From IMG/VR virus record IMGVR_UViG_3300013101_000064, positions 1-28,548 of that record: DNA of 28,548 nucleotides; one strand, 5' to 3'. Numbering within the stretch: position 1 is the first letter of the stretch; each line of letters starts with the position of its first letter. Source of the stretch: a virus. The notes under the pieces are model-generated. The model ran no database searches and was not told the DNA's origin. It was given only the letters and a program-made list of their open reading frames with translations. Positions 3,785-26,159 of this stretch are shown piece by piece. A program made the position numbers and the translations under genes.

Positions 3785-3790
3785 TGGAAA

Positions 3791-4246
3791 TCAGCCTTCT
3801 GTTGGGATCATCTGGGGGAACGCAGCCCGCCATGAATCGGTAAGTAGCCCCAAGCCTTCGAGGCACTCGAACGTTTGGATGAACACCCACGCCACGTCGG
3901 GGTCCATGCTTCCGCACTGCTGGAGTTCGAGATTACACGGCACAGGATCGGGACACTCGCAGGTGCCTTCGGGGCCTTCCAGTCCGTCGCGCCCGACGGG
4001 ACCTGCGGGTCCGACAGGACCTACGCTGCCCGCGCTAGCCCCGCCACGAGGACACGGCTCGGAAGGAACGGAGGCGAAGTTGATCGGGTCGCCAGCCACG
4101 CTGGCGGTGAACAGAGCGAGCAGTTCAGGCGGAACGTGCACGCCGTCGGTGTGGACCTTGATCATGCGTCCGTCGATGTTGTTCATGTAGGCGAGCATCA
4201 CCAGACGCTGGATGACCTGCGCTCGCTTGTCCTTGATGAGTGCCAT
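3791..4246 (-). CDS. Short collagen-motif tail protein
   Basis: The frame encodes 151 residues from the ATG at 4246, preceded by a GGGAG ribosome binding site seven bases away. An N-terminal helical part (MALIKDKRAQVIQRL...) is followed at about residues 70-92 by a short Gly-X-Y tract ([16 protein letters not shown]) and then a Cys-containing tail (CECPDPVPC). The C-terminus is helical and Trp-containing. It shares the MALI start and the Gly-Pro theme with the large fibre downstream, so it may be an accessory fibre subunit or a connector that co-trimerises with the fibre. That role is inferred from position and composition only. Confidence 0.75.
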   Translation of the reverse strand: MALIKDKRAQVIQRLVMLAYMNNIDGRMIKVHTDGVHVPPELLALFTASVAGDPINFASVPSEPCPRGGASAGSVGPVGPAGPVGRDGLEGPEGTCECPDPVPCNLELQQCGSMDPDVAWVFIQTFECLEGLGLLTDSWRAAFPQMIPTEG

Positions 4247-4296
4247 ACGGCTGCTCCCACGTTGAGGGGACCCTCGTCTGGGAGGCTAGTGGATCA

Positions 4297-4611
4297 TCAC
4301 GGGTTCGTGGGTGAACCACCGACGGGTGTCCACGCAGGACCACCGCTACCTGCCGCTGCTTGCACCTGATACCACTGGCCGTCAGCGACCACGTACACCC
4401 AGTCTGTGGGCTGGCTGTAGTCCTCTGGCAGCATGAACGCCAAGGCGTCCACCGTGCCGACACCCACTACGGCGTTCGGCGCAGCCACGTTGCGGCCCTC
4501 CCGCTCCAGACCTTCGATGCGTTCGTTGAAATCCTCCAAGATGCCGAGCGTCTCATTCATCACTCCGCCCACCCGATGGATTACCGGCTGGCCGCTCACG
4601 GGTCGGGACAT
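4297..4611 (-). CDS. Small tail protein with coiled coil and Trp-rich C-terminus
   Basis: The frame encodes 104 residues from the ATG at 4611. The start overlaps the end of the upstream minor tail gene by 16 nt. Residues about 18-40 (MNETLGILEDFNERIEGLER) form a short amphipathic helix that could be a coiled coil. The C-terminal half has PTDWVYVVADGQWYQV and ends with GPAWTPVGG, a Trp/Tyr-rich beta segment resembling small carbohydrate-binding or fibre-attachment modules. The second Met (residue 18) is an alternative start, but its GGAG sequence is too close to be a good ribosome site. The function is unknown. The position between baseplate-type proteins and fibres suggests a tail-tip component. 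Confidence 0.7.
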   Translation of the reverse strand: MSRPVSGQPVIHRVGGVMNETLGILEDFNERIEGLEREGRNVAAPNAVVGVGTVDALAFMLPEDYSQPTDWVYVVADGQWYQVQAAAGSGGPAWTPVGGSPTNP

Positions 4612-5822
4612 CCTGTTCCGTCGGGGAGCACCATGACCGACGGTGCACTGACGAACGACACCGACACCGTTTCGCCGCCTTCACCGGTTTCCGTAACACG
4701 CAACTCGTGGAGGCGTTGGTATTCGGACACTGAGCCTCGGCACAGTCGGTCCACGGTCGCCAGCGTCCACGAACCAGGCATCAACGTGTTCACGTCCCAC
4801 GGAGACGACGGCATCAAGGTCGAACCGGCAGGCACGACGATGTTGCGGCGGACCGGATACAGGTCCTCTAGGCGGCGTTCCGCTGTATCTGTCCACGTCG
4901 CCAACTTTGCGGCCGATGGCGGCTCGGGCAGGATGGGGGAGCCGGGCACTACGTTGCCGTCACCATCCACGACATAGCGAGGCGGGTTGGCGTCGGCCTG
5001 CGACTTCTCCGACGACAGCGTGTCGATCGCCGGACCGTACTTGTCCTGAATCCCCTGCGGGGCGAAGCCGAACCCGGCGTATCCCGAACCGTCAGTGCGG
5101 ATGTACCGGGTGGCGAGCGAGTTGCCGTACTCCACGATGCGTGGATAGTCCGCTATGTCGGCGGGGTCCAGCGGTGCGATCTCATTCCAGTTCAAGTGAA
5201 CATCCCACCAATAGATGTCCCGGCCAACCACCGTGTAGTCGAGGCCGTAATCCTCAGCGAGTTTGTCCAACTCCAGCCAGTACGTCGTCGCCCAAGCGTT
5301 CGCCTGACGAGCCGAGTCCGGATCGCACGGCCCGAATATCGGGTGCAGAAACGGGACCATGTTCCAGTAGTCGCTGACCCCCTCGTAGCACTCGTCCATC
5401 AAGTCTTTGGCGTTCTGGATCGCGTTGATCTTGCCGGTGCCGTACAGCGGGCCAGGGGTGCAGTCTAGGCACGGCTCCATGTGGTTGTACGAATGCGCCA
5501 AGGCTCGCCGCTTCGCAACCCACAGCATGTCCTCCGCGAATATCTGCACTTGGTCCCACTCGAACTCCATGCGGGTGATGACGCCGATCCACACGACTTC
5601 ATCGTCACGATAGATGTGGATTTCGTTCTGGACCGGCTCAATCAGTTCGAGCAGATCGCAGCAAGTGCCCATCGGCACGTCAACTTGCGCCACTGAGATG
5701 TTGTCCCGGATGCGCTGCCAGGTGATCTTGGTCGCCGTCAGGATCTCACCGACAGGGACCTCCCCACCCGACCCCCAGATACCGATTCGGTGCTTTCCGC
5801 AGAACGCTGGAGCGCCGGGCAT
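4596..5822 (-). CDS. Minor tail protein, Gp37-like baseplate hub
   Basis: The frame encodes 408 residues from an ATG whose A is the last base of the previous gene's TGA (1-nt overlap). The N-terminal 110 residues carry a pattern seen in siphovirus Gp37-like tail proteins: WQRIRDNISVAQVDVP, then a Cys pair, then NEIHIYRDDEVVWIGVITR, which matches the hub-domain 'iyRdg..vW.G.it' signature. The middle part is Trp/Tyr-rich (YWLELDKLAEDYGLDYTVVG) and the C-terminal part is beta-rich. Known for the family: these proteins form part of the tail tip downstream of the tape measure. The location two genes after the tape measure agrees. The family assignment is from memory of motifs, not a search. Confidence 0.78.
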   Translation of the reverse strand: MPGAPAFCGKHRIGIWGSGGEVPVGEILTATKITWQRIRDNISVAQVDVPMGTCCDLLELIEPVQNEIHIYRDDEVVWIGVITRMEFEWDQVQIFAEDMLWVAKRRALAHSYNHMEPCLDCTPGPLYGTGKINAIQNAKDLMDECYEGVSDYWNMVPFLHPIFGPCDPDSARQANAWATTYWLELDKLAEDYGLDYTVVGRDIYWWDVHLNWNEIAPLDPADIADYPRIVEYGNSLATRYIRTDGSGYAGFGFAPQGIQDKYGPAIDTLSSEKSQADANPPRYVVDGDGNVVPGSPILPEPPSAAKLATWTDTAERRLEDLYPVRRNIVVPAGSTLMPSSPWDVNTLMPGSWTLATVDRLCRGSVSEYQRLHELRVTETGEGGETVSVSFVSAPSVMVLPDGTGCPDP

Positions 5823-7267
5823 CAGGCGCAGCCCTTCTCGGCGGCCAGTAACTCCACGAGTAGTTCCACGCTCTCTCCCACAGGTTGATCAACTGTCACC
5901 GTGTACGCCTCTCCTGTTTCGAGTTCAGCCCACGGGGCAAACCCATCGCCGTCCCAGCGGCGGGCGAACCCGTTGAGGGTACGCGACTCGCCGTCGTATT
6001 CGGTCGTGATACGGCGAGCCTTCGAGTCCACCTTCACCAGACCGGTGGCGGGGATGAACGGCAGCACGTAACCGCTGACGAGTTCTCCGCCCTTCCACAC
6101 GCCGACACGCACCGGGCCAACCTGAGTATCGACAGCGGCGAGCATGATGCCCGGCACCGTCTCCGACAGTGAGGTCCGTCGTTCCGGGACGAAGGGGATC
6201 GTTGACCGCTCCCACACCGTCGGCAACACCAGCCCAGTGGAGGGGCCGCGAGGGATCGAGGACGCAGACGGCGGGAAGAACGGGTTGACGACCGGCACGT
6301 CCGGGGGCGGGTCGCTGACTTGCACGGTTGGGCCGATCGGCTGCACGCCAGCCACTGCCACTTCCACCGTGTACTCGTGAGGATCGCCACAAGCGACCGT
6401 GAACTCGACCTCTGCGATCTCACCGCCCGAGGGCATCGTCTGCCGGTTCAGGATGATCGGACCCTCAGTGACTCGCACCGATTGGAACTGGCGAAGATAC
6501 GGGACCAGGCACTCACTCACATCGCAGGCGAACTGCGGGAGGCCGTCGAGAACCTGGCTGTAGGTCCCAATCCACGCACACCAGCCACACGACTCGTAGC
6601 CACCAGCGTTCGGGCCAATCACGAACTCGTTGTAGTTGGCGATCCAGCACGTCGCTGGCGGGCAGTCCAAGGGGCCGGTCGCCAGTTCCTCGTACGTGTC
6701 AGGCCAACACGGGCCGACAGGCGGGGCGTTCGGATCGGTCGCACAGATCGGACAGCAGTCCAGAAACCACAGGTAGTCCTTGCCGCACTCTTCAATCTCG
6801 ATCTCGTACTGACAGCGCATCCAGTTCAGCCCGACCTCCATGCCGCAAGAGTCAGCCGCCACAGCGAGGCCGCGCACGATGATCTCACGAGGCCCGAATC
6901 GAAGGCGAGAGATTGCACCCCCGCCTTCGACGGACGCTTCAACGGACGCCGTGCGTGTCGAGTCCTCAGCGCCCTGCACTTCGAGGCCCATCACGCCGAA
7001 GAACTTGTCGGAGTCACGGATGGTCGGGTCGTACCACGGGGCCGGGTCAATCTCGGGCAGGAAGTAGCCCTCGCCATCGGTGAACAGAAACTCAGCAGAG
7101 TCACAGTCGTCGCAGTTCTCCATGAACGACAGGCAGTCATCCTCGCCGTTCTGGCGGACCTTCCTGTTCCAGTTCTCGACGTAGCGTTGCACGCGCATCG
7201 TGTTGATCAACTCGAACGTCTGCTCTTGAAGCGTTGCGCCGCCGAGCGCCATGTAGCCCTGGTACAT
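5822..7267 (-). CDS. Minor tail protein (distal-tail type), cysteine-rich
   Basis: The frame encodes 481 residues from the ATG at 7267, seven bases after the tape-measure stop. The gene immediately after the tape measure in siphoviruses usually encodes the distal tail protein, and the N-terminal pattern (LQEQTFELINTMRVQRYVENW, later FGPREIIVRGLAV) is compatible with that fold. It has 18 cysteines, several as pairs or CxxC (ENCDDCDS, LDCCPICATD, ESCGWCAW). A Pro-rich linker near residues 310-340 separates the N-terminal region from a C-terminal beta-rich domain of about 130 residues, which might contact the fibre or the host. The exact function is inferred from position. Confidence 0.8.
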   Translation of the reverse strand: MYQGYMALGGATLQEQTFELINTMRVQRYVENWNRKVRQNGEDDCLSFMENCDDCDSAEFLFTDGEGYFLPEIDPAPWYDPTIRDSDKFFGVMGLEVQGAEDSTRTASVEASVEGGGAISRLRFGPREIIVRGLAVAADSCGMEVGLNWMRCQYEIEIEECGKDYLWFLDCCPICATDPNAPPVGPCWPDTYEELATGPLDCPPATCWIANYNEFVIGPNAGGYESCGWCAWIGTYSQVLDGLPQFACDVSECLVPYLRQFQSVRVTEGPIILNRQTMPSGGEIAEVEFTVACGDPHEYTVEVAVAGVQPIGPTVQVSDPPPDVPVVNPFFPPSASSIPRGPSTGLVLPTVWERSTIPFVPERRTSLSETVPGIMLAAVDTQVGPVRVGVWKGGELVSGYVLPFIPATGLVKVDSKARRITTEYDGESRTLNGFARRWDGDGFAPWAELETGEAYTVTVDQPVGESVELLVELLAAEKGCA

Positions 7268-7274
7268 CAGTTCC

Positions 7275-9992
7275 TCACTTCATCGTGGCGGCCATACGGT
7301 TCAGCACCTTCTGGGCTGTGGCCTCCGTATTGCCGCTCCGGTCGTTGATCGTCCAGTTGTTCGTCACCTGCTGGCTGCTCGTCGGGCCAGTGTAGGACGA
7401 CGAGTAGCCGCCCTGGTTCTCGCCACGGATCAACGCAGCCATCGCCCGCACCGACGGGTCAACTAGGGCCAACGGCCGAGTCAATGGAATGACCGCCTCC
7501 GCCCCGGCCTCCCCGATGAGGGCCTTTGTGGGACCGTTCACGATTCCACCGGCAGCCAAGCCGATCCGGTCGAGCACCCCACCGACAAGACCTGCTCCAG
7601 GGATATTGTCCAGCACTCCACCGATGCGCCCAGGGAGTCCAGCGATCCAATCCCAGGCCGCCTTGAACGGCGACATGATGATGTCAGCCAGACCCGACAG
7701 AGCACTCGCTATTTCCCCCGGCAGGGCCTTGAAGCCTCCGATGACATCATCGAAGAAACCGAGCAGGAAGTCTTTGATCGCGTTCCAGATTTCATAGGTC
7801 TTGTTCTTCGCAGCGAGCCATTCCCTTGACACCGCGTTCTTGATCGTGCTCAGCGACGTTGTGAACGTGGACTTGATCGAGTTCCAGATACCGACAAAGA
7901 AGCCTTTGATCGCGTTCCAGATTTCATAGGTCTTGTTCTTCGCGGCAGTCCACTCGTTCGTGAGGGCGTTTCGCATCGACAGCAGAAGGCCGTCGAACCA
8001 GTCGCCCATACTCTGCCACGTGTCGATAAAGAAGTCTTTGATCGCAGTCCACGTGTCGATAAAGAAGTCTTTGATCGCAGTCCAAACCGAGATCGCCAAG
8101 TCCTTCATGAAGTTCCACGATGTGTCCCAAGCCTCAGTGATCGCTTCGAGCGCGCCGAGGAACTGATCCCGCATGTCTCCGACATCATCCTCCAGTTTGT
8201 TGAGGACCGACGAGAAGAAGTTGATGGTTCCAGCCAGAGCGATGAAGCCCAGAGCGATGAGGTCCAGAGTGCCCTGCAACGCGAACTCTGTGAGAAGCAA
8301 GAGCGGCGGCCCGATGATGATGGCGAAGTCGATGACCGCTTCGAGCAGTCGAACCATAGAGTCGATGAAGTATTCCCAGTCGATCCCGGCTATCGCATCG
8401 GCCAGCGCTGACCCCATAATGCTCACAAACTCCGTGAGCGGCGGAATCAGCGGTTCGAGAGCCTCCAACACTTCTGCCAGGACCAACGCCATTTCTCCGA
8501 GGATGTCACCCAAGACGACTTCGAGAGTCGCCAACAACGGGTCGAGCGCGACGAGGAAACTGTCGATCGCACCGGCCAACACCGACAGCGGACCCTCGGC
8601 CCGTTCGATGATCCCGCCGACAGTCTCCAGGAGTCGCGCAAAGAAGTTGAGTGCCCCGGTCTGTCCGATCAGCGACAACAGTGTCCCGAGCGCAGGCAGG
8701 ATTTCCCCGAGCGACACGCCAAGGTCCGCGAACCGCTCGACCGCCTCAGGAGTGACGATGTTCTGGAACATCCCCTGGAGTCCTTCGAGGACCGGCCCCA
8801 ACGCACGCATGACTGCCTCGCCGGTTTCCAGGAACTCCAGGAACGCCTCCTGCCCTTCCGGGGTATTCAGCCATTCGTCAAGCCGATTCACGATGCCTGT
8901 CAGTGAGTCGATGAGGCTGTTGCCGGACTCCGATGCGGTCCGCATTACCGTCCCGATCAGGCCGCCCAGCGCGCCGATGAGGTCCATCCACGACCCGAGA
9001 GATTCCACCGCCGTGTCCAGGAACCCCTGAATCGACTCCAAGCCTTCGGTTGAACCCACGAAGTCGGCCATGTTCTCAGCCCACGCCAGGAACTGCTCGG
9101 ACAGCAGTTCCGCAGCGGGTGTTGCCGCCTCCACGAACCCGAAGAATGCCTCGGTCAGCGGAGCAAACGCATCCAACACGTTCTCCGTCACCGGGATCAG
9201 CGCCTCGAAGATGCCAACCAGGTCGATCTCCTGGAGAACATTCAGAACATCAATGAACGCGCCGTTGACCGCCTCAGCAAACCCGACGAGGACGCCCTCC
9301 ATGCCTTCGATCATCGGACCGAAGTCAGTCAGTTCGTCAGCCAGCCCAGCGAACAGGGCTTCCTGTACCGCCAACCGAATCTCGTGGAACACCGGCAGCA
9401 GTTTCTGGAACTCGGTGACGAAGGCGGCTGCGGCCGGAGCCAGATTGCCGAGCGCCTTCTCGATTGCTTCGAGCGTTTCGGCGCTCGTCTCGCCGTCCTC
9501 CAGGAACTCAGCGAATCCCTCGTTGATCGACGTTAGTGCTCCGCCGACGCCCTCCAGACCAATGGCGATCGACCCGAAGGCAGCACCCAGACCGACACCG
9601 ATCGGGATGAGAGCAGCCGACGCTCCGAGCGCCGACAGCAGGGACGCGGACACGGCGGTGATCGCACCAGCAGCGCCGTACAGAGCGACACCGACCGTCT
9701 CACCGAACACCGCAATGATGCTCCCCCACTTGATCAGTTCGCGCCGAAACGCGCCCCGGCGACGGCGGGAGTTCTTCTCGTTGCCCTTCTTCCAGCCCTT
9801 GTCGAACTTGTCGGACGTGTCCTCACCGCTCTTTTCGGCGTCCTTCTGGAAGTTCTTGTCGAGAAGGCCGTCGAACTTGACGTTGATGTCGTCCAGCGAC
9901 TTCTCCATCACCTTCGACGCTGCGAGGATCTGGGCGATCGCCCCAGCGGTGTCAGCATCAACCTGGACTGTGATCTTTGGTATGAGGCCCAC
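7275..9992 (-). CDS. Tape measure protein
   Basis: The frame encodes 905 residues from a GTG at 9992; no strong Shine-Dalgarno sequence is visible. It sets tail length and is held inside the tail tube. At roughly 1.5 angstrom per residue, known for the family, it would span about 135 nm. The N-terminus (GLIPKITVQVDADTAGAIAQ) is followed by a charged stretch rich in Lys and Asp, then long hydrophobic Ala/Gly-rich and amphipathic helices (about 85-600). Residues about 635-735 contain 11-residue repeats with regularly spaced Trp and Phe (WTAIKDFFIDT twice). Near residues 815-835 is the GGIVNGPTKALIGEAGAEAV motif typical of tape-measure C-termini. It directly follows the tail-assembly chaperone frames, as expected. 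No peptidase domain was seen. Confidence 0.95.
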   Translation of the reverse strand: MGLIPKITVQVDADTAGAIAQILAASKVMEKSLDDINVKFDGLLDKNFQKDAEKSGEDTSDKFDKGWKKGNEKNSRRRRGAFRRELIKWGSIIAVFGETVGVALYGAAGAITAVSASLLSALGASAALIPIGVGLGAAFGSIAIGLEGVGGALTSINEGFAEFLEDGETSAETLEAIEKALGNLAPAAAAFVTEFQKLLPVFHEIRLAVQEALFAGLADELTDFGPMIEGMEGVLVGFAEAVNGAFIDVLNVLQEIDLVGIFEALIPVTENVLDAFAPLTEAFFGFVEAATPAAELLSEQFLAWAENMADFVGSTEGLESIQGFLDTAVESLGSWMDLIGALGGLIGTVMRTASESGNSLIDSLTGIVNRLDEWLNTPEGQEAFLEFLETGEAVMRALGPVLEGLQGMFQNIVTPEAVERFADLGVSLGEILPALGTLLSLIGQTGALNFFARLLETVGGIIERAEGPLSVLAGAIDSFLVALDPLLATLEVVLGDILGEMALVLAEVLEALEPLIPPLTEFVSIMGSALADAIAGIDWEYFIDSMVRLLEAVIDFAIIIGPPLLLLTEFALQGTLDLIALGFIALAGTINFFSSVLNKLEDDVGDMRDQFLGALEAITEAWDTSWNFMKDLAISVWTAIKDFFIDTWTAIKDFFIDTWQSMGDWFDGLLLSMRNALTNEWTAAKNKTYEIWNAIKGFFVGIWNSIKSTFTTSLSTIKNAVSREWLAAKNKTYEIWNAIKDFLLGFFDDVIGGFKALPGEIASALSGLADIIMSPFKAAWDWIAGLPGRIGGVLDNIPGAGLVGGVLDRIGLAAGGIVNGPTKALIGEAGAEAVIPLTRPLALVDPSVRAMAALIRGENQGGYSSSYTGPTSSQQVTNNWTINDRSGNTEATAQKVLNRMAATMK
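7773..7943 (-). repeat. 39-bp direct repeat in the tape measure, 132 bp apart
   Basis: The same 39 bases occur at 7773-7811 and 7905-7943, in frame, encoding AAKNKTYEIWNAIK-type helices. The 132-bp offset equals four 33-bp units, so it belongs to the same 11-residue periodicity as the perfect tandem pair at 8016-8081. Confidence 0.85.
8016..8081 (-). repeat. Two perfect 33-bp tandem repeats in the tape measure
   Basis: Two identical 33-bp units (8016-8048 and 8049-8081) each encode one turn of the 11-residue WTAIKDFFIDT repeat. They are perfect at the DNA level, so the duplication is recent or maintained by recombination. Units of 11 residues with a fixed Trp and Phe are known in tape-measure proteins. 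Confidence 0.9.
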
Positions 9993-14384: not shown

Positions 14385-16091
14385 TCAGGTCGTTGGCGGG
14401 ACCGGTGTGACTGGCGGAACCAGGCACTCGTCGATGTCGTCCAGGACGCCCTTGCCGCTGATGCAGATGGGCAGCGTGATCGCACAGGTGTGAGTGCACT
14501 TCTGGACGGCGAGGATGCCCTCTTCCATGAAGAGCGCCGTGTACTGGTTGGCCTCCAGGTTGGGGGAGTCGTACACAGCGTCCACGTTGATCACGTCGGT
14601 GGTGCCCTTGGCCCAAGTACCGGCGGGGTACATGAGCAAGGTGACCTCGGTCGGGAGCGTGATGTCGCAGCCAACCACGGTCGGGTCCTGGAAGTCGTAG
14701 ACCCACTGGACGCTCATGTTGCGTGAAGTGAACCAGCCGTCAACCTCGGCGTTGGAGACGTTCGCGTTGTCGCGATCGTTCTGCATCGCGAGGTCCATGC
14801 GGACGACTTCCTGGAACCAGTACGGAGCCACGACTTCGAGTTCGGCGTCGGTTGCGAGGCGGTACGAGTACCGCATGCCGATCGCGGTGAACACGATCTG
14901 CTCCAGGGTGAGAGCGACAGCCCCGACTTCTATGCCGACGACCGGAGTACCGGCTGCCATGAGCATGGTGTCGAGAATGTACTTGTTCACCTTGTGGGCG
15001 TGGGCGACGAGCGCACCTTCGATGAAGCGCTGTACCAACTCGGGGTAAGCGTTCTCCGTCAGGAGCGGCGACTTGATGCACAGGCCGATCGCGTCGAGAC
15101 GAATCTCATCGAAAGGCGGGCAGTCCACCATGCAACAGTCCTTGCAGTCTCCCGCAATGGCCTCCGGCTCGGTCTGGAAGAACCCACAAGCGGTGTAGAT
15201 GTCCTCGAACGACGGGCCACTCGTGTAGCGGATGCCGCCACGGTTGACCTGGAACTCGGGGATCGAGAGGACGCCTTCCAGCGTCTCGAACTGGCAGAGA
15301 TCGTAGATCGTCTCGGACGGGGCGCACCAGCCGCCAGCGGCGACGAGTGATCCACCGGGGAGGCGGGCCGGGTCGGTCGCTGCGAACAGCAGATCGAGGT
15401 CCGTCGCTCCACCCTCGGGTGTCTGCGTGGTGGCGTCATCGAAGCCCATCTTCTGGATGAGCGCAGCGCCGTAACGCTGACGAACGCCGCCTTGAGCCGT
15501 GGCGAGGTTGGTCCTGGGCAGACCCTTCGTCCTGGCGAGCAGCGCCTTGGTGACGGCACGCATGCCTTCGAGTTCTTGGCCGTTGCCGTAGCCGGGTACG
15601 TCAGCAGCAGCGATGAGAGTCGCTGTCTGGCGCTGAGGCACGATGACTTCGGGCGCAGCAGCAGCAGCGCGGGCGACGGGGGATGGGCTGGCGGATGCGG
15701 CCACTGGTTGTGCCTCCTGGGCTGGTTCGATGATTTCGTCGGGGGTGACGACCTCTTCGGCGGCTTCGACCGCAGCAGCGACCGGGGCTTCCTCGGCAGG
15801 TGCGTCGGCGGCCTCCGCGACTTCCTCAGCCGGGGCGACTTCCTCAGCCGGAGTGGCCTGGGCTTGGAGCGCAGCGATGCGCTCGGCCTTGGCTTCGGCA
15901 GCGGAGACAGCCTCGGCCTTGGCGGCGCGAAGAGTGTTCAGCGACTCCGACAGGCTTTCGCCGGTCGTGATGTCGTCGTCGGACGAGTCATCCGAGATAT
16001 TCAGGGCCTGGAGGGAATCCAAGGCTTGGTCGATATTGGCGTCGATCTCATCGACGGTAAGTCCTTCGAGGGACTCGGGAAGTTCGTACAT
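14385..16091 (-). CDS. Scaffold-major capsid protein fusion (HK97-fold)
   Basis: The frame encodes 568 residues from the ATG at 16091, with GGAG eight bases upstream. Residues 1-160 are predicted disordered or helical and rich in Ala and Glu (VDEIDANIDQALDSLQALNI at about 13-32; LNTLRAAKAEAVSAAEAKAE at 51-70; a run of PAEEVA-type repeats at 81-130). They look like an internal scaffold or delta domain removed by the prohead protease. The capsid part starts at about 170 with RAVTKALLARTKG, followed by GWCAPSETIYDLCQ and later VAPYWFQEVVRMDLAMQNDR, a pattern of HK97-type capsids. Thirteen cysteines occur, including GDCKDCCMVDCPP. The cleavage point must lie between about 140 and 180 but is not visible. 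It is preceded by the protease gene. Confidence 0.88.
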   Translation of the reverse strand: MYELPESLEGLTVDEIDANIDQALDSLQALNISDDSSDDDITTGESLSESLNTLRAAKAEAVSAAEAKAERIAALQAQATPAEEVAPAEEVAEAADAPAEEAPVAAAVEAAEEVVTPDEIIEPAQEAQPVAASASPSPVARAAAAAPEVIVPQRQTATLIAAADVPGYGNGQELEGMRAVTKALLARTKGLPRTNLATAQGGVRQRYGAALIQKMGFDDATTQTPEGGATDLDLLFAATDPARLPGGSLVAAGGWCAPSETIYDLCQFETLEGVLSIPEFQVNRGGIRYTSGPSFEDIYTACGFFQTEPEAIAGDCKDCCMVDCPPFDEIRLDAIGLCIKSPLLTENAYPELVQRFIEGALVAHAHKVNKYILDTMLMAAGTPVVGIEVGAVALTLEQIVFTAIGMRYSYRLATDAELEVVAPYWFQEVVRMDLAMQNDRDNANVSNAEVDGWFTSRNMSVQWVYDFQDPTVVGCDITLPTEVTLLMYPAGTWAKGTTDVINVDAVYDSPNLEANQYTALFMEEGILAVQKCTHTCAITLPICISGKGVLDDIDECLVPPVTPVPPTT

Positions 16092-16556: not shown

Positions 16557-16563
16557 CCCTTTC
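16557..16563 (-). promoter_or_regulatory. Shine-Dalgarno site for the ATG of small ORF A
   Basis: GAAAGGG on the minus strand, six bases before the ATG at 16550, overlaps the TGA of the protease gene. The same layout (GAAGGG, seven bases, ATG) is used by the tail chaperone gene, which supports its use here even though a TGA follows six codons later. Confidence 0.5.
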
Positions 16564-19306
16564 ACTTGGCTGACGCAGCGATCTTAGCGATCCTGCGTGC
16601 CCGCACTTCGGTCCGTAGTGGCAGAAGATCGGCCAGGCGTTCTGCCCGCTTCTGTTTCGCCGCCAACTTCGCTACCACTGCGTCAGCGATCGCGTCGATG
16701 GACGGGTCCGGCTCGTGGATGACGACACCGGCAGCGACCAGCGATTCTTGGTGTCCGCCTGAGGCTGCGAGTGCTGGACGTGGCACGGGGAAGCCCGGCA
16801 CGTTCACGGCGAGGCCTGCGACGAGTTCGAGTGCCCCACCAATGCTGCGCCAGTCACCGGAGATTCCACCGGCAGCCATGAGGGTGCGGCGTTGCTCGTC
16901 GGTGACGCCATCACACAGTGAGCCTGCGACCCAGATGCCGTGTGCGTCCTCGCCAGCCCGAACCTTGGCGACCGCTGTTCCGGTGTGGTCGTAGTGGCGG
17001 CGGGTATCGGTACCAGACAGGTGGAGGTCGGCGTGGCCGGTCCCCAACGTGAGGGTGCCTACAGCGAGAGTGCCTTCGTCTGACTCGACCGCTCCCAGAT
17101 GGAAGTGGGCGTAGTTCGACTTCGATGTTGGCGGCGTCACGCACTGCCCTTCGATGCCGATGTGGCAGGTTCCCCACTTGGCGATGTGGCCGAACACGCG
17201 ACCGGCCTTGTCCACGACGAGCGCAGTCGGGGCCGAGAACTTCGGATCAGCGAACCAGGCGGCGTTCACCACTGCTGGCGGGGCAGCGGCCACGATGGTC
17301 AGGGCTGGAGCAGCCTCAGGGATGGAAGCGGAAGCGGCGATCATGGCGGTGTCCTCGCAGTCGGTGCATGGTTCGAGTGAGTTCTTCGGGTTGTTGCCCG
17401 GCTTGCCGAGTTCTCCCGGCCAGTAGCCGAGAGCGTCGTGGTGCCACTCAGCGCAGGTGCGGTTGAGGAAGCGGGGTTCGATGTACTTGCGGAGTTGGCG
17501 GGTGCAGCGAGTGAAGTCGCCACCGGTACCCCAGCGAATCTTGGCGGCACCTTTCCCCTTCGTCCAGTAGCGGTGGAGACGGCTCGTCTCTTCGGGGTGT
17601 GTCACCCAGCCGGTGCCACGCTTGAACGTTTCGATCTCTGCGGCGGCCGCCAGCGGCTCCGACAGTTCGGGGTCCACGCCGAGCGAGATGAACGACTCCT
17701 GGAACGCAGGAATCTGCACGATCGTCAGCCCGGAGATGCGGGCTTCCTCGAACACGGTGGTGGGTTCCTCGCCGCCGTCGAGAGCCTGTTCCATCTCGGC
17801 GTCTGTCGGCATCGCGACCTTGCCCTTGTCGCCAGCAATCGACACGCCACGCAGCGCGCCTTGGGCGATGAGGTTGATCACTTCGTCAGTCTCGGGCACG
17901 TCGGTGAGCAGTTCGCCCGTGTAGTGCCACATGTCGTCGTCACGGAGTTCGAGGGTGTCGAGGCGGCCGACCACGACTTCGCCCTCGTGCTCCGAAGCGG
18001 AGGCTCGCTGCCAGGTGAGTGTCAGCGGCAGGTCCCGGTGCGTGATGCCGCCGGGAGCGAACATGCGCTTGTCGCCAGACTCGACGCCTTCGGGAACCGC
18101 CACGCCGTAGACCGGCTGGTTCTGGTCCTCGGCCGGGATCGGCTCGTCAGGGATCGGTGGGGCGTCGTCATCTTCGGTCACGTCATCTTCGAGCGGTTCT
18201 TCGGTCACGGGTTCCCCCAGGTTGAACGTGTGATGGTCGTCTCCGCCAAACCATGCACCGATTCGGTTCATGGGAATCTCGTCACCCGCCTGTGCGTCAG
18301 AGCCGGTGATGTGGCTGATCCAAGTCGGGTGTCCGTTGCGCTCTTCGTACATCGCCATGACAGGCCCGCCGTCGATGGCGAAGTTGTGCATCGCCTGCAA
18401 CTCATCGGCTTCGGTCAGCACGATTTCGTCTTGGTCCTCGCCCAGTGTTCCGCGCCCAGACACACGAGCAGTGAACGGCTCGAAACGTGCGGCCATGCGC
18501 TCTGCCACTTCCAGCACCGCCTCGCGCTCGCCTTCTTGCATCTGGTCGGTCGAGCCGAGATACGCCAGCGTCTGGTGGAGTTCGGTCGAGTCGCCGTCCT
18601 CGTACGTCACTCGCTGATCGCCTGCGGGAAGCGCCACGAGGACCACGCCGGAGAATCCGCCCGAGGCAACCAGATTGGGGTCCATTCGCCCATCGTACGC
18701 ACCGGACGCGACCACGGTGCCGATACTCAACACGCACCGGCAGTTGATCCAGGCGTCCACCGGGCCGACCGGCTCACCCGGATACTGCATCTGCGCAGGC
18801 GGTGTCGTCTTGACCGTGAAGAAGTCGTTGATCTCTTTCGTCTCGCCGTCGAGCGGGGCATGGGTGTCACGAACGGCGTCGTCGCGCATCGTCACCCACG
18901 TCTTGGTCTGCACGGTGCCGGTGGACTCCGCTGCGTACAGGGTGGCGGCTCCGAGAGTCGCCGTCGAGAACCAGTTGGAGATGCGAGCGACCTGTGCCTC
19001 CTGGGCAGCGACCGCCTCTTCCTCCGTCTCGTAGTCGATGTAGTACGTCGAGTCCGTCTCCGGCAACACCGCCTCCATCGCTGCGAGGAACAGGGCGAGG
19101 TACTTCTGCTCTTGGGACTCTTCGCCGCCTTCCTCCCCGTAGGTCAGCAGGAACAGGATCGTGAGTGCCGTGACGAACTCCGCCATCATGTCTCCGCTGG
19201 CTTGTTCTTGGAGAGCACTGTCCACTGCGGGTGCGTACTCATCGGCCAATGCAACGAGGTCCTCGTCTCGTTGGGCGGCGAACGTGTCCAGGTCCATGCC
19301 GAACAC
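16562..19306 (-). CDS. Multidomain MuF-2H phosphoesterase-prohead protease protein
   Basis: The frame encodes 914 residues from the ATG at 19306, nine bases after the portal stop. Residues 1-200 are MuF/SPP1 gp7-like: TKTWVTMRDDAVRDTHAPLD at 134-153 and DAWINCRC at 184-191. Residues 218-335 look like a 2H phosphoesterase with paired H-x-T motifs, HQTL (244-247) and SHIT (331-334). An acidic linker (365-395) leads to a prohead serine protease region at 398-545, with candidate His440 in SEHEGEVVVG, Ser489 in GVSIAG and a C-terminal IVQIPAF strand. Residues 562-650 hold WVTHPEETSRLHRYW and CAEWHHDALGYWPGE. Residues 684-843 form a domain with HYDHTGTAVAKV (771-782) and ISGDWRSIGG (815-824) that looks like a second protease-type fold. 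Capsid maturation is the likely job. Domain calls rest on motif recognition. Confidence 0.85.
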   Translation of the reverse strand: MFGMDLDTFAAQRDEDLVALADEYAPAVDSALQEQASGDMMAEFVTALTILFLLTYGEEGGEESQEQKYLALFLAAMEAVLPETDSTYYIDYETEEEAVAAQEAQVARISNWFSTATLGAATLYAAESTGTVQTKTWVTMRDDAVRDTHAPLDGETKEINDFFTVKTTPPAQMQYPGEPVGPVDAWINCRCVLSIGTVVASGAYDGRMDPNLVASGGFSGVVLVALPAGDQRVTYEDGDSTELHQTLAYLGSTDQMQEGEREAVLEVAERMAARFEPFTARVSGRGTLGEDQDEIVLTEADELQAMHNFAIDGGPVMAMYEERNGHPTWISHITGSDAQAGDEIPMNRIGAWFGGDDHHTFNLGEPVTEEPLEDDVTEDDDAPPIPDEPIPAEDQNQPVYGVAVPEGVESGDKRMFAPGGITHRDLPLTLTWQRASASEHEGEVVVGRLDTLELRDDDMWHYTGELLTDVPETDEVINLIAQGALRGVSIAGDKGKVAMPTDAEMEQALDGGEEPTTVFEEARISGLTIVQIPAFQESFISLGVDPELSEPLAAAAEIETFKRGTGWVTHPEETSRLHRYWTKGKGAAKIRWGTGGDFTRCTRQLRKYIEPRFLNRTCAEWHHDALGYWPGELGKPGNNPKNSLEPCTDCEDTAMIAASASIPEAAPALTIVAAAPPAVVNAAWFADPKFSAPTALVVDKAGRVFGHIAKWGTCHIGIEGQCVTPPTSKSNYAHFHLGAVESDEGTLAVGTLTLGTGHADLHLSGTDTRRHYDHTGTAVAKVRAGEDAHGIWVAGSLCDGVTDEQRRTLMAAGGISGDWRSIGGALELVAGLAVNVPGFPVPRPALAASGGHQESLVAAGVVIHEPDPSIDAIADAVVAKLAAKQKRAERLADLLPLRTEVRARRIAKIAASAK

Positions 19307-19315
19307 GGTAGCGAA

Positions 19316-21082
19316 CTATGCGTCGGCTGTGATGGCTTCGAGATGAGAAGCGGCGAGCAAGCGGCCGAGTGTCGTCCGGTTGTGCTTGCGTTGCGTCGAG
19401 ATCAAACCCCGAACGTAGAAGTCGAGAACCTGTGTGACTTCGGGCACCTTTACGGAGTACTCGGCCAGAATCTCAGGGGCGCAGTCCCATGCTCCTTCGA
19501 GCAGATAGTCGGCTTCGCCGGAGAGCGACGTGTAGACGGTGTGGATCGGCATGGCCGTCACATCGGTGCGGGGGTGCTTGTTCTTCAAGCGGTTCCCCGC
19601 CCGCTCCAACGCCCGGAACACGAGGACTTCGCAGGCGGCAGCGAGAGGCTGTTCGGCCTCGTCCATCTGTGGGATGCCGCGCTGTGTCTCGACCTCGGTG
19701 TCCTCGGCGGTGTGAGTCGGCTGCTCCTGAACATCGTCGGGCACGACGAGCGACGGGTCGATGTTCGCCCCGAGCACCCGGAGGGCTTCGGCTGTGAGTT
19801 CTGGCGTGACGGCACCAGTGGCGATGCGCTGCAACAGCCACAAGGCGTACTCGTCGTCGTCCATCTTGTCCTCGTCCTTGAACCCGGTTTCACGGCGGAC
19901 GGCCTGAGCCTTGATGAGGCCACGGTCACGCAACTCGAATGCCTGCTCGCCCTTGTTCGGCCGGACACGAATCTCACTGGTGTCAGCAATGACGTAGTAG
20001 TCGATCAGTTCGTCGTCGGGCACCACGCCGGTCAGCGCCGGACGCAGGTACGACGTGGACAGCGCGCTGTTGATCACGCCGAGGCGGGGTTCCAGGTGGG
20101 CCTTGATTGCGGACTCTTCGGACAGCCAGGCGTTCCAATGGTTCTCTTCGGCGTTGCCCATCAGGACCGACGGCGGGACATCCATCCCGATCGCGAACCG
20201 CTTGATCGCGGCCTCACGCATCATGATGACGGACTCATCGAGGTCAGACCAGAACGTCAGGTGACGGATCGCTTCGATGTATTCGCCGGGACACGTCACA
20301 ACGATTGGCACGAACGCTGCCGGGGACGATCGGTTCTGCTTCGCAGTCTCCATCGCTTCGTGCAATGACTGCATGAATGTGTCGGCCTGCGTGGCTTCCG
20401 GGTCTGTCTCGGGGGCGGCGGCAAACTCGATCTCCGACGGCATGATCAGGATTCCTGCACCCGCCAGGCGGCTTGTCAACTGGGCCGAGATGTGGTCGTC
20501 GTAGCCCACGATCTGCGAGAGCGTCTTGAGGTTCGAGCGGGTCGGCGCGTCGGCCTCGGACGGATTGGTCGGGTGCGGCGTCCAGACACGGATGAGCAGG
20601 TCGTCCGCTTTCTTCGCGTAGCGAGTCTCACCGTTGCCGTAGTTCATGGTGATCGCGCCGCCCTTGCCCTGCGTCACGTTGCCGGTCGAGAGGACATCCC
20701 AGTTGTCCTGGCCGTCAACGGTCCGGGCGGCGATGTAGCCCTCACCGGACACCGTGGTGTCCACACCGAGTAGATGCAGCATCTGCGACTGCCCCTGCGG
20801 CCCGCCGTACAGGGCGTCCATTGCCTCTCGTGCCGGGCCTTCTGTCAGCGGGATCAGTTCATTTCCGTCACGTTTCGCCGCATGCAACTGGGCACGAGAC
20901 AGCACGTTCCCAATCCAGTTCGACAGGTAACGGAGTTCACCGACCTCATCAAAGAAGTTCCAGGCTGTGCTCTGCCACGACTGTTGTCGGCCAGCGTCGG
21001 CCGCCTTCGCTGTAGGCAGACGGACGGCTGATGCCACGAACCCGTTAGGGGCCTCGGGCTGACGGGTGCGCTGGCGAGCCAT
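19316..21082 (-). CDS. Portal protein
   Basis: The frame encodes 588 residues from the ATG at 21082. The N-terminal part has WNFFDEVGELRYLSNWIGNV, then DALYGGPQGQSQMLHLLG, and later DLDESVIMMREAAIKRFAIG followed by MDVPPSVLMGNAEENHWNAW, a motif set typical of siphovirus portals (wing, stem and clip region, where PP..l.g is common). A glutamate-rich segment (about 470-500) is followed by a helical C-terminus of about 90 residues, making it longer than the usual 450-500 residues. It forms the dodecameric channel where terminase docks. It is followed directly by the MuF-protease gene, as expected, but is separated from the terminase gene by a sugar-modification cassette. Confidence 0.93.
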   Translation of the reverse strand: MARQRTRQPEAPNGFVASAVRLPTAKAADAGRQQSWQSTAWNFFDEVGELRYLSNWIGNVLSRAQLHAAKRDGNELIPLTEGPAREAMDALYGGPQGQSQMLHLLGVDTTVSGEGYIAARTVDGQDNWDVLSTGNVTQGKGGAITMNYGNGETRYAKKADDLLIRVWTPHPTNPSEADAPTRSNLKTLSQIVGYDDHISAQLTSRLAGAGILIMPSEIEFAAAPETDPEATQADTFMQSLHEAMETAKQNRSSPAAFVPIVVTCPGEYIEAIRHLTFWSDLDESVIMMREAAIKRFAIGMDVPPSVLMGNAEENHWNAWLSEESAIKAHLEPRLGVINSALSTSYLRPALTGVVPDDELIDYYVIADTSEIRVRPNKGEQAFELRDRGLIKAQAVRRETGFKDEDKMDDDEYALWLLQRIATGAVTPELTAEALRVLGANIDPSLVVPDDVQEQPTHTAEDTEVETQRGIPQMDEAEQPLAAACEVLVFRALERAGNRLKNKHPRTDVTAMPIHTVYTSLSGEADYLLEGAWDCAPEILAEYSVKVPEVTQVLDFYVRGLISTQRKHNRTTLGRLLAASHLEAITADA

Positions 21083-22201: not shown

Positions 22202-22794
22202 CAGAACGGCGGAACCCAGCGGGCGAAGATCACACCACGAGGGGTTGGTAGTCGAATGGCTCGCAGGTCGTCTCGCCTCATCAGCGAATGCGACCAGTCC
22301 CCGAAGTGCGGGGCTGTGTCGTGGAACCCGACAACGGTGCGGCTGTGGAAGAACTGGCGGTAGAAGTCAAACTCCTGCTCACGCAGTTGGATGTGCGAGT
22401 CGAACCAAGCGAAGTCGATCGACCCGTGCTCCCACGGCGACATCGACGGCTCGTTGTGGATCACGACAGTGCCCTCCAACTCGCCGTCGTGATGGACGTA
22501 ATCCACGGCTTCGAGCCATGTCGGCTCATCGACCTCGTAACTGTGTAACACCCCTCTGCCATTCTGGAGAAGTGCCCGACCCACGGCTTTAGCCATGAAG
22601 CCACGGCTGGTCCCAGTCTCCAGCACCGTGTCCGGCTGGAGGCCGCGGATCATCCCGGCGACCATCTCGATCACCTGGATCTCGGTGCCTTGAATGTCGT
22701 GCGTCGTGTACCGCTCTGGGTGAGGGCAGTCGGGGCGCGGGCGGGTGAACTGCGACTCTTTGTAGATTCCGACGGGGATGTTCGGGTCCGTCAT
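22201..22794 (-). CDS. Class I SAM methyltransferase
   Basis: The frame encodes 197 residues. The ATG at 22794 overlaps the glycosyltransferase stop by 4 nt. The SAM-binding glycine-rich motif is VLETGTSRGFMAKAVGRAL (57-75), followed by HSYEVDEPTWLEA (84-96), where the acidic residue after the second strand holds the ribose. A later IDFAWFDSHIQLRE (126-139) and VVGFHDTAPHFGDW (154-167) match the 'iD...iDg.H' and 'hD' strands of Methyltransf_24-type enzymes, which often act on sugars or small molecules. The neighbouring glycosyltransferase and sulfotransferase make a glycan O-methyltransferase plausible, although the acceptor is unknown. The N-terminal stretch (TRPRPDCPHPERYTTHDIQG) may be a substrate arm. 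Confidence 0.8.
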   Translation of the reverse strand: MTDPNIPVGIYKESQFTRPRPDCPHPERYTTHDIQGTEIQVIEMVAGMIRGLQPDTVLETGTSRGFMAKAVGRALLQNGRGVLHSYEVDEPTWLEAVDYVHHDGELEGTVVIHNEPSMSPWEHGSIDFAWFDSHIQLREQEFDFYRQFFHSRTVVGFHDTAPHFGDWSHSLMRRDDLRAIRLPTPRGVIFARWVPPF

Positions 22795-23729
22795 TTCAGA
22801 TGCCTTCCGACTCGGGCGATCAGTTTCTCGAACGGGTCACCCCAGCAATCCATGTGCGTGGTGTAGACGCCTTGGTTGGTGCGCGCTGCGGCTTCGAGCA
22901 GGAGGGCGTTGGCCCGGTCCCACTCGTTGGCTTTGATGCGCAACTTGGCGAGATGCACGAACGGCTCACGACGTTCCGGTGCTTCGGAGATCGCCTGCCA
23001 CAGCCAGCGTTCCGGGTTGTCGTCCATCTTGGCGATGTGCATGAGCGCCTCGCCGCGCTCTGGCCCCCACGTGGCGTTGCGGTGGTTCAGGTATTGCCAC
23101 AGGGCAATGCGTGCCCTCTTCCAGTCGCTGCGATACGTGTACTCGCGGCCCAGATAGAACAGCGACCTTGCGTCGTCGGGGTACTCCGCCGACCAATACT
23201 CCAGCATGCCCAGCACGTACCGGCGGGACTTGGACTTGTCGGGCTGGTGCTCCATGACGAGCGTGTCGAGATGAGCGTTCGGCTGGTCGCCCTTGATGAC
23301 CTCGTGGATCGGGTGCTCCCATCGGAAGCCCTTGCCCATCCGCACACAGTTCATGCGTCGTACCCGCCCCCACGAGTTCTGGTTGTTCGTCAGCCAGTAC
23401 GACCACCGGTTGTGTTCCGGGTTGACCTCATCGAGTTCTTCGCGCCAGCCTTCGAGCAGCACTTCGTCGGCGTCCAACTGGAGACAGATGTCGATGTGGC
23501 GGGGGATCGAATACATCGCCACGTTGCGGGCGTCATCGAAACGGAACGGCTCGATCCAGGCCCGGCTGATCTCGATACCGCACGCCTTGGCGACCTCAAC
23601 GGTCGAGTCGTCGGAGCCGGTGTCCACCATCAGCAACAGGTCGGCGTCCTTGGCGGACTCGGCCCATCGTTCGATCTGCTTCGCTTCGTTGAGAACTGGG
23701 GTGTAGACGGCGACGGTTGGCCTGCTCAT
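22791..23729 (-). CDS. Family 2 glycosyltransferase with helical-repeat tail
   Basis: The frame encodes 312 residues from the ATG at 23729, overlapping the upstream stop by 4 nt. The GT-A start is clear: TVAVYTPVLNEAKQIERW (5-22), then LLMVDTGSDDSTVEVAK (32-48) and LQLDADEVLLEGW (83-95) with the metal-binding DAD triad (86-88). RWEHPIHEVIKG (136-147) is typical of GT2 enzymes that begin with this layout. Residues about 180-285 are paired helices with TPR-like spacing (ARSLFYLGREYTYRSDWKRA; REPFVHLAKLRIKANEWDRA), which could bind a protein acceptor, as in other GT2-TPR glycosyltransferases. Such a tail would suit direct glycosylation of a virion or envelope protein. Substrate sugar unknown. 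Confidence 0.88.
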   Translation of the reverse strand: MSRPTVAVYTPVLNEAKQIERWAESAKDADLLLMVDTGSDDSTVEVAKACGIEISRAWIEPFRFDDARNVAMYSIPRHIDICLQLDADEVLLEGWREELDEVNPEHNRWSYWLTNNQNSWGRVRRMNCVRMGKGFRWEHPIHEVIKGDQPNAHLDTLVMEHQPDKSKSRRYVLGMLEYWSAEYPDDARSLFYLGREYTYRSDWKRARIALWQYLNHRNATWGPERGEALMHIAKMDDNPERWLWQAISEAPERREPFVHLAKLRIKANEWDRANALLLEAAARTNQGVYTTHMDCWGDPFEKLIARVGRHLK

Positions 23730-24044: not shown

Positions 24045-25403
24045 CTACGACACGAGAGAGAGCGGCGATGCGAATGTGGCCTTCTGGCGACGTTTCTGCA
24101 ACTCGGTGATCGCGAACACGAGAGCGTCCACCCGGTCAGGCGACTTCGAGTTGCGGTCGCTGGGCACCCACTCGGTCATCTGCGCTTCGAGATCCTCGAA
24201 CACTTCGACGTGGTGAATCTTGCCCTGCTCGTACATGCCGACGACCGGCTCGGCGCGCAACTCTTTGCCACGCGCTGAACGTTGTTCGATGATGCGACCG
24301 TCGATCCCAGAGTTCCGCATGTTCGAGATCACCATGTCGGCACCGAAGTTGACCTCCGCCACGTAGGCGTCAGCGTCCCACTTCTCGTACATCGACTCGG
24401 CCGCCTTCGCCCATCCGTGTGGGCTGTAGTGGCCGGAGCGGTCCTCCAGGACGTACGACTGGTTGTCGATCGAACCGGCGACGATGATCCCTGTTTCGTC
24501 GGCGCTCGTCTTGGATGAACCGGCGGGGTCGATCGCGACGATGATCCGGTCGAACTCGGCGGGACCCGGCGTGACCCGGTGCTCTTCGATCATGTCCCAA
24601 GTCCACAGCGCGCCCTCAACGTCGGTGAGCATTTCGCCGTGGAGTTCCTGGCGGCCGAGCCGGGTGCCTTCGTACCGGGCGATGACCCGCTCTGCGAACA
24701 CAGGCGACAGGTTGTCCAGGTTGGCGTACGTCGAGACGGTGACCGTGCGAGTGCGTGGATCAGCGAGCAGTTCCTTCATCCAGGGGCGCGACTTCGGTGT
24801 GGTCGTGACGAGGATGCGCGGGCGAGCGCCGAGGCGCAGACCGAACAGCAGGTTGTCCCAGCATTCCTGGACGAGGGGCCAGTGGGCGGCCTCATCGAGC
24901 CAGGCGAAATAGTGCTCGGGACCACGCAGGCGGTCAGGTTCCTCGGCGGAGAACAGGGTGCCGACCGAGCCGTTCGGCCAGGTGAGACGCTTCTTCGACG
25001 GCTCGTAGAACGGGCGATGATCAGGCGGCGCAATGGTGAGGATGCCGGACTCGCCTTCGAGCATGACCTCTCGTGCGTCGGTGGAGGTACCCGCCACGAG
25101 AGCGATACGAGGCAACTTCTTCGTGGCGCGATGAACGAACTCTGTGCCGCAGCGTGTCTTGCCGGTGCCACGTCCTGACATCTGGTTCCAGACCAACCAC
25201 TCCGTGTCGGTCGGCGGGCGCTGGTCGGCTCGGGCGTGATGCCAGTCCCAGTCACCGTGAGGGCTGCCGTTGCAGATCGGGTTCGGGCAGTAGAACGGTC
25301 GCCATTCCTTGGCGGTCCGTTCGCGCAGCGCCTGCAACGCTTTCTCTTGGGCGGCTGGCGTCCATTTCTTGTAGGCGTCTGTCTCGACTGTCACTTCAAC
25401 CAT
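24045..25403 (-). CDS. Terminase large subunit
   Basis: The frame encodes 452 residues from the ATG at 25403, overlapping the small 97-aa gene by 13 nt. It packages DNA into the prohead. The Walker A P-loop is SGRGTGKT (76-83), Walker B is HYFAWLDEAAH (164-174), and the motor coupling motif VTTTPKSRP follows at 199-207. The RNase H-like nuclease begins with IIVAIDPAGSSKTSADETG (287-305), with Asp292 as a catalytic candidate, and continues with AEVNFGAD (349-356) and DRVDALVF (423-430). A Cys/His-rich N-terminal segment (CPNPICNGSPHGDWDWHHARADQ, around 39-61, with the two Cys four residues apart) may bind a metal, and I recall it from actinophage terminases. Length is typical. Confidence 0.95.
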   Translation of the reverse strand: MVEVTVETDAYKKWTPAAQEKALQALRERTAKEWRPFYCPNPICNGSPHGDWDWHHARADQRPPTDTEWLVWNQMSGRGTGKTRCGTEFVHRATKKLPRIALVAGTSTDAREVMLEGESGILTIAPPDHRPFYEPSKKRLTWPNGSVGTLFSAEEPDRLRGPEHYFAWLDEAAHWPLVQECWDNLLFGLRLGARPRILVTTTPKSRPWMKELLADPRTRTVTVSTYANLDNLSPVFAERVIARYEGTRLGRQELHGEMLTDVEGALWTWDMIEEHRVTPGPAEFDRIIVAIDPAGSSKTSADETGIIVAGSIDNQSYVLEDRSGHYSPHGWAKAAESMYEKWDADAYVAEVNFGADMVISNMRNSGIDGRIIEQRSARGKELRAEPVVGMYEQGKIHHVEVFEDLEAQMTEWVPSDRNSKSPDRVDALVFAITELQKRRQKATFASPLSLVS

Positions 25404-25684
25404 CCCTCGATCTCTGAGGCGGGAACGCCGTCTCGCAACATCTTCTCACCGATGGCACGGCGGAAGAAGGTGCCGATGTTCGTGTCGAGCGAATCGGTGT
25501 GCTGTTTCATGCGCCGCCACAACACGATCGACACCCGGCAGGTGGCTTGCCCGAAACGAGGAACGCCCTTCATTGCCTCAGGCTTGTTCATCCCGATCGA
25601 GTCCCGCTTCCACATACGGGCCGACTTCGGGTCCTCTTCTAACAGCAGGTCGTCCAACCAGTCGTCGTCAGTCGTCCCAGCCAT
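25391..25684 (-). CDS. 97-aa protein between terminase subunits, possible ribbon-helix-helix
   Basis: The frame encodes 97 residues from the ATG at 25684, chosen because it leaves only a 17-nt overlap with the small terminase gene; the frame is open further upstream. The acidic N-terminus (MAGTTDDDWLDDLLLEEDPK) is followed by TCRVSIVLWRRMKQ and NIGTFFRRAIGEKMLRDG, a strand and two helices with the spacing of a ribbon-helix-helix DNA-binding fold. It could modulate terminase recognition of packaging sites or autoregulate the operon. The fold is a guess from the pattern. Confidence 0.65.
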   Translation of the reverse strand: MAGTTDDDWLDDLLLEEDPKSARMWKRDSIGMNKPEAMKGVPRFGQATCRVSIVLWRRMKQHTDSLDTNIGTFFRRAIGEKMLRDGVPASEIEGWLK

Positions 25685-26159
25685 CGCTCTCGTCCTCCAC
25701 GATGTCGGCGTCGATGATGTCGGGTTCCTCCAGCGCCTGGCGGGGAATGGCATGACCGACCATCGTCGCCACCCACTGATCCAACTCGGTCTGTGTCGGT
25801 GTGTGGATCGTGACTTCGGTTGGAGCGTCGAGTCCGTACAACTTGATGCGCCGGTCGATGACGGTGACGGCGGCACGCACCGCGATGATGTGTTCGGTGT
25901 GTTCGGTGTTGGTCGCCTTCTCCATCAGGCCGACCAGGAGTTCATCGAGGCGGGCCGCTTCAACACGGCGCATCTCGTCTCGTTCTTCGGTCATCCCTTC
26001 GCCCTGCGTGGCGAGTTCTCGTGACACGAGAGTCAGGGCGGCACGGGGACTGGACAGCCCGAGCGTCATGGCGATGTCCTCGTACGACGTTCCGTGGACC
26101 CGGAGTTGCACGGCGGCTGCACCCATTCGTGCCGGTGCGTTGGCGATGGTGTCGGTCAT
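25668..26159 (-). CDS. Terminase small subunit
   Basis: The frame encodes 163 residues from the ATG at 26159, whose ATGA overlaps the end of the RHH gene. The N-terminal region (AVQLRVHGTSYEDIAMTLGL, then SSPRAALTLVSRELAT) is a helix-turn-helix of the kind used by small terminases to bind pac or cos DNA. A long acidic coiled-coil-like helix follows (TEERDEMRRVEAARLDELLV, VGLMEKATNTEHTEHI), and the C-terminus is acidic (EDESDGWDD), probably contacting the large subunit. Location one gene upstream of the large subunit agrees. Family assignment is by layout. Confidence 0.85.
   Translation of the reverse strand: MTDTIANAPARMGAAAVQLRVHGTSYEDIAMTLGLSSPRAALTLVSRELATQGEGMTEERDEMRRVEAARLDELLVGLMEKATNTEHTEHIIAVRAAVTVIDRRIKLYGLDAPTEVTIHTPTQTELDQWVATMVGHAIPRQALEEPDIIDADIVEDESDGWDD

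Follow-up and report, generated by a model that had tools for sequence, protein, structure and literature searches.

A 2H phosphoesterase domain within a MuF and prohead protease polyprotein of a tailed phage, and a module-border signature shared with the major capsid protein

The window analyzed here is the whole 28,548-nucleotide stretch of IMG/VR virus record IMGVR_UViG_3300013101_000064. It contains a minus-strand open reading frame (ORF) that encodes five modules on one chain, between the portal gene and the major capsid gene (Table 1); the plus-strand reading of the same interval is interrupted by stops. The genes are arranged in the order terminase, portal, fusion, and major capsid gene, with the major tail protein and the tape measure protein also encoded downstream of the fusion gene, and this order of head genes was found as well in the isolates Hyperion, Odyssey395, and Kithara. 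The fusion ORF encodes a polyprotein for head assembly in a tailed phage, the relatives of which infect mostly actinobacteria. The PHROG label "portal protein" for phrog_859 was set aside because the portal is a separate gene upstream.

Several neighboring genes were recorded in passing. A beta-1,4-glycosyltransferase-like gene (22791-23729, minus strand; phrog_13126, E 1e-66) lies between the terminase and portal genes, and an ORF beside the terminase (25668-26159, minus strand) hits phrog_645 (E 1.8e-19), a PHROG that bears the name RNase E, which may not denote the enzyme. Among the matches listed, the major capsid protein is closest to that of the cyanobacterial Pseudanabaena phage Pam4 (42.5%), ahead of those of actinobacterial phages.

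Table 1. Features of the fusion gene and of the head genes around it (window positions; residues refer to the fusion protein)
Feature	Residues	Position	Strand	Evidence or remark
Whole ORF: MuF, 2H, prohead protease, phrog_6439 domain, second protease-like domain		16562..19306	minus	914 aa, GTG start
MuF-like minor capsid region	1-196	18719..19306	minus	Pfam PF04233 and PHROG head morphogenesis
Signature LVASG	212-216	18659..18673	minus	just ahead of 2H
2H phosphoesterase domain	218-368	18203..18655	minus	AlphaFold pLDDT 87.5, pTM 0.82; VIA-align Z 12.8 to 1iuh
First H-x-T motif, HQTL	244-247	18566..18577	minus	H244 and T246 invariant in 68 aligned domains
Second H-x-T motif, HITG	332-335	18302..18313	minus	H332 invariant; T334 in 65/68
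Prohead protease (S78, herpes/T4 gp21 fold)	394-549	17660..18127	minus	Pfam PF04586, fold, S489
Signature LAAAA	552-556	17639..17653	minus	between protease and phrog_6439 domain
phrog_6439 domain	564-635	17402..17617	minus	phrog_6439 E 3e-23 at 572-634
Signature MIAASA	655-660	17327..17344	minus	
Signature IVAAA	671-675	17282..17296	minus	ahead of last domain
C-terminal head maturation protease family domain	~676-850	16757..17281	minus	phrog_18402 E 1.4e-68, match spanning 677-909
Signatures LAASG and LVAAG	846-850, 856-860	16727..16771	minus	end of last domain
Signature IAASA	909-913	16568..16582	minus	C-terminus
Portal protein		19316..21082	minus	phrog_776 E 1.8e-140; directly upstream of fusion gene
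Major capsid protein		14385..16091	minus	568 aa; phrog_777 E 1e-145
Terminase large subunit		24045..25403	minus	Pfam Terminase_6N E 2e-29

An earlier, sequence-only reading of the ORF had named MuF, 2H, and prohead protease domains. All three stand on Pfam and PHROGs matches, and the 2H and protease domains also on structural models; two further domains, the phrog_6439 domain and the C-terminal one, had been overlooked. At the N-terminal end, Pfam MuF (PF04233) matched residues 120-193 at 27.5 bits (E 5.6e-6), just below the cutoff of 29.6, and a PHROGs head morphogenesis family matched at 116-194 (E 1.4e-14); together with the adjoining portal gene, these matches identify a MuF minor head protein. 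The prohead protease was matched by Pfam Peptidase_S78 (PF04586) at 439-541 with 27.2 bits, above the cutoff of 21. In the full-length model its fold aligned with T4 gp21 (5jbl, Z 10.4) and with the VZV protease (Z 10.6), and the catalytic serine, S489, is invariant across 18 sequences. The last domain, whose pattern resembles that of the first protease in alignment, is read here as a putative second protease-like module; a C-terminal helix follows it.

Pfam 2_5_RNA_ligase2 matched residues 242-334 at 21.7 bits, short of its cutoff of 27, and a PHROGs RNA ligase family matched 240-340 (E 1.4e-5). Because the Pfam scores for both MuF and 2H were below cutoff, the 2H assignment was tested by other routes. 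A profile built from 17 sequences matched solved structures of 2'-5' RNA ligase type 2H enzymes (E 2.3e-6), and profile alignments placed both H-x-T motifs of the window protein onto both H-x-T motifs of 1vdx, a solved 2H enzyme. The conservation of the motif residues across 68 aligned domains (Table 1) demonstrates that the motifs are not chance occurrences.

An AlphaFold model of the domain, built from the 68-sequence alignment, predicted with high confidence a 2H fold, in which two similar lobes surround a cleft. Its top structural matches were exclusively 2H enzymes: Thermus 2'-5' RNA ligase (1iuh, Z 12.8), Arabidopsis CPDase (1jh6, 11.7), LigT and Usb1 (11.2), and the rotavirus VP3 2'-5' phosphodiesterase (PDE; 10.7), with weaker matches to phage Acb1 (8.2) and the penguinpox cGAMP PDE (7.9). 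The full-length model gave the 2H fold again, at residues 219-367. The paired motifs that the sequence-only reading had assigned to a 2H phosphoesterase are thus borne out by conservation, by the predicted fold, and by the 1vdx alignment. Its expectation that the motifs face each other in a shared cleft is favored, as far as that test was taken, by the predicted 2H fold and by motifs that fall on the 1vdx pair.

Within the superfamily, the 2H family profile matched 2'-5' RNA ligase type enzymes (8.6e-6) and, over the half containing the second motif, the penguinpox cGAMP PDE (2.6e-4); the match to Acb1 was weak (0.023). A Pfam search of the window protein extending to E 10 gave no match to the Acb1 family (PF23474), and some relatives match it weakly (E 0.0015 to 0.12). 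Membership of the window protein in the Acb1 family was dropped for want of sequence support. In the 68-domain alignment, the window copy deviates at several near-invariant positions (R307 to H, P331 to S, L335 to G, G336 to S, Y337 to D, and D347 to N). These changes around the second motif may reflect an altered substrate specificity or a decay or weakening of the enzyme.

Homologs of the fusion protein, mostly of its protease part, were found in 914 phage records, with hosts including Mycobacterium, Gordonia, Microbacterium, and Arthrobacter. The 2H segment was matched by 59 phage records from isolates, which are annotated as capsid maturation protease, as MuF-like fusion or, in some cases, as RNA ligase; the domain is missing from many relatives. 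In viral contigs, with P1 and P2 denoting the first and second protease-like domains, the orders that include 2H were MuF-2H-P1-6439-P2 (35 proteins), MuF-2H-P1-P2 (14), MuF-P1-2H-6439-P2 (2), and P2-6439-2H (1), and 2H-P1 and P1-2H-P2 forms are also present. Elsewhere, 2H forms a separate gene between the MuF gene and the protease gene (L038), closes the gene immediately upstream of the protease (L048 and L059), or, in ReqiPepy6 gp013, occupies a gene with neither MuF nor protease. The place of the 2H domain differs among related capsid-protease polyproteins, with several positions in use. For a tree of the last domain, at least 16 changes between presence and absence of 2H were required; branch support was low and the well-supported branches force only a few of these changes, so the number of gains and losses is not firm, and repeated gain or loss of 2H is likely as judged from this tree. 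For scanning the collection, a pattern was derived from a subset of the 17-sequence 2H alignment, as all 17 sequences yielded none, and a scan with the 2H domain of L045 recovered just one further locus.

The relatives also include proteins of other composition. A second set of 2H proteins (L129-L158) carries an HxGVKGMKWGVRK motif (DUF7211) shortly behind 2H, which might be a targeting signal. In L066 (ORF 3760-7287), an intein splits the MuF domain of the polyprotein (Pfam Intein_splicing, E 5e-9). The 1859-aa capsid protease polyprotein of L068 (ORF 3694-9270) contains a Dps/ferritin-like domain at residues 1307-1442 (Pfam E 5e-15), located after the second protease-like domain and directly preceded by VVASG, a string resembling the border signature; this domain is possibly another head cargo.

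The module borders of these polyproteins are marked by a short signature, [LIM][VTAI]A[SA][AGS]. In 73 non-redundant polyproteins, linkers held 174 signatures in 19,344 residues, compared with a mean of 9.9 and a maximum of 18 after shuffling, a comparison for which the signature had been picked from the window before its test on relatives that share ancestry, so that the shuffles control for composition and not for descent. Domains in the same proteins held 44 in 40,201 residues, mostly inside the last domain, and the copy in the last domain of the window protein is located at that domain's C-terminal edge. Of 31 MuF-2H-protease proteins, 16 have a signature on the N-terminal side of 2H (0.6 expected) and 9 have one on its C-terminal side (0.3 expected). 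Odyssey395 has 2H flanked on both sides (ITAAA-2H-LTAAG), and a signature again stands beside the relocated 2H domains of L045, L042, and L125. The window protein itself has none between 2H and protease.

The strict signature also links the polyprotein to other head proteins. Of 16 head, tail, and neighboring genes tested in the window, it occurs only in the fusion protein (eight copies) and the major capsid protein (two copies, at residues 159-163, LIAAA, and 249-253, SLVAAGGWCAPSE). Almost all capsid homologs retain it at the SLVAAGGWCAPSE site, and in many of them another copy lies some 85 residues upstream. In five isolates the portal carries it close to the N-terminus, where the window portal shows a near-match only (FVASA at 15-19); other structural genes rarely have one. 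The view that the signature is merely alanine-rich linker composition was rejected, as shuffled sequences gave about 10 copies against the 174 observed and the 905-aa tape measure protein contains none. This distribution suggests that the prohead protease probably cleaves at the signature. A solved structure that would give a mature N-terminus to set against the capsid site was sought by sequence, and none matched the major capsid protein. As to published capsids, the main text of the Rosebush capsid paper (a related cluster) does not mention cleavage, Corndog proteomics does not give the cut site of the capsid subunit, and a text search of capsid papers for LVAAGG found no match.

Fusions of this general type have been described. 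According to the available excerpts of two papers by Iyer and colleagues (2017, PMC5512222; 2022, PMC9503650), 2H domains fused to MuF or portal proteins probably travel in the virion, are injected, and could act against nucleotide-based immunity; a Nudix domain fused to the capsid-processing peptidase is reported there as well. As in the window protein, 2H is carried there on a head protein, with action on nucleotide immune signals or RNA proposed. The excerpts describe MuF or portal fusions and make no mention of the MuF-2H-protease order, of 2H movement, or of a border signature, although the order may appear in the figures or supplements. The idea of virion delivery is not new, because it is already in both papers. 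The suggestion, made from the sequence alone, that the phage carries an anti-defense 2H enzyme in its virion is hence an independent rediscovery of a largely anticipated interpretation, and the present analysis supports it in part. As far as these texts show, three points are additions to the literature: the MuF-2H-protease order, the shifting place of 2H in the polyprotein, and a border signature that is shared. The polyvalent proteins of Iyer 2017 are defined by several effector domains that are packaged and injected; in the window chain, one effector-type domain was found.

Other known systems resemble parts of the chain. The consulted portions of PMC7302621 report MuF-protease fusions in Microbacterium cluster EG and MuF-VIP2 fusions elsewhere; the fusion in cluster EG and related phages is homologous to the window protein and matches it in gene position, and its description there does not mention 2H, while some homologs are annotated as RNA ligase. 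In MuF polymorphic toxins and MuF-VIP2 fusions (PMC5576092 and PMC7302621), an effector is likewise carried on a MuF head protein, but that effector is a toxin, whereas the window protein has a phosphoesterase with a protease on the same chain. LigT-like PDEs are used by many viruses against immune signals (PMC11410667). Acb1, rotavirus VP3, and the avian poxvirus cGAMP PDE share with the window domain the 2H fold and the H-x-T pair; unlike it, they stand alone as enzymes or belong to other proteins, and their activity has been demonstrated.

Taken together, the reading that we favor, with a probability of about 0.55, is that the polyprotein enters the head and is cut at the signature, and that the 2H piece leaves with the DNA and hydrolyzes a phosphodiester. 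The chain would get into the procapsid through MuF at the portal, and the signature would then direct cutting by the protease of the chain itself, of the portal at its N-terminus, and of the major capsid protein. Packaging of the 2H-bearing protein is plausible, because its gene sits among head genes and is fused to MuF and a prohead protease. The 2H piece would then remain in the head. As no signature lies between 2H and protease in the window protein, cutting at the signature would free 2H together with the protease and not 2H by itself, and in the window phage the piece is probably still attached to the first protease domain. It would exit with the DNA and, in the new host, may hydrolyze a cyclic or 2'-5' phosphodiester.

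The 2H fold family includes both RNA-end enzymes and immune-signal PDEs. The 2H profile reaches immune-signal PDEs, yet the nearest folds are ThpR, LigT, and CPDase; we therefore place a nucleotide immune signal first among the candidate substrates, at slightly less than an even chance, and 2',3'-cyclic phosphate RNA ends left by defense nucleases second, as an unlikely one. The corresponding alternative to the favored reading is that 2H heals RNA ends, opening 2',3'-cyclic phosphates on defense-cut tRNAs for religation, with no role against immune signals. Its best structure and sequence matches are indeed to ThpR/LigT/CPDase type enzymes acting on such ends, and PHROGs and several database entries call the domain an RNA ligase. 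Against this, the searched subset of ORFs in the 28.5-kb fragment yielded neither an RNA ligase nor a kinase, the 2H profile matches an immune-signal PDE too, and Iyer 2017 (PMC5512222) reports that the 2H versions of polyvalent proteins and their solo counterparts never occurred with RNA ligases. We consider RNA-end healing unlikely on balance.

A different possibility is that 2H serves head assembly as a structural or binding module whose catalysis is dispensable, as its fusion to structural proteins and its absence from many relatives would allow; the drift of the window copy at several conserved positions and three relatives without the second threonine point the same way. Both catalytic histidines are, however, invariant in 68 divergent domains in which most other positions vary, and the differing positions of 2H suit cargo better than a fixed structural role, which makes this reading distinctly improbable. 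The enzyme might also act in the producing cell late in infection, its packaging being incidental: its gene lies with the late head genes, and defenses that signal late in infection exist. We regard such action as very unlikely, given that the fusion to MuF and protease indicates processing within the head, as do the signatures next to 2H in many relatives.

The favored reading, in which a 2H piece is processed in the head and delivered with the DNA, can be extended. The polyprotein may be a loading system for enzyme cargo, in which modules such as 2H, or a Dps/ferritin-like domain in one relative, take up variable places between signatures that also occur in the capsid protein and the portal; maturation would then ripen the capsid and at the same time free head-packaged effectors. 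We put this extension forward tentatively, as possible and somewhat doubtful. If it is true, capsid maturation in a large, mostly actinobacterial phage group would process an enzyme cargo as well. Cut sites would be readable from sequence, allowing a computational listing of the cargo of unstudied phages, and laboratory-strain phages of Microbacterium and Arthrobacter would permit a direct test of the delivery of a virion-borne nucleotide-degrading enzyme.
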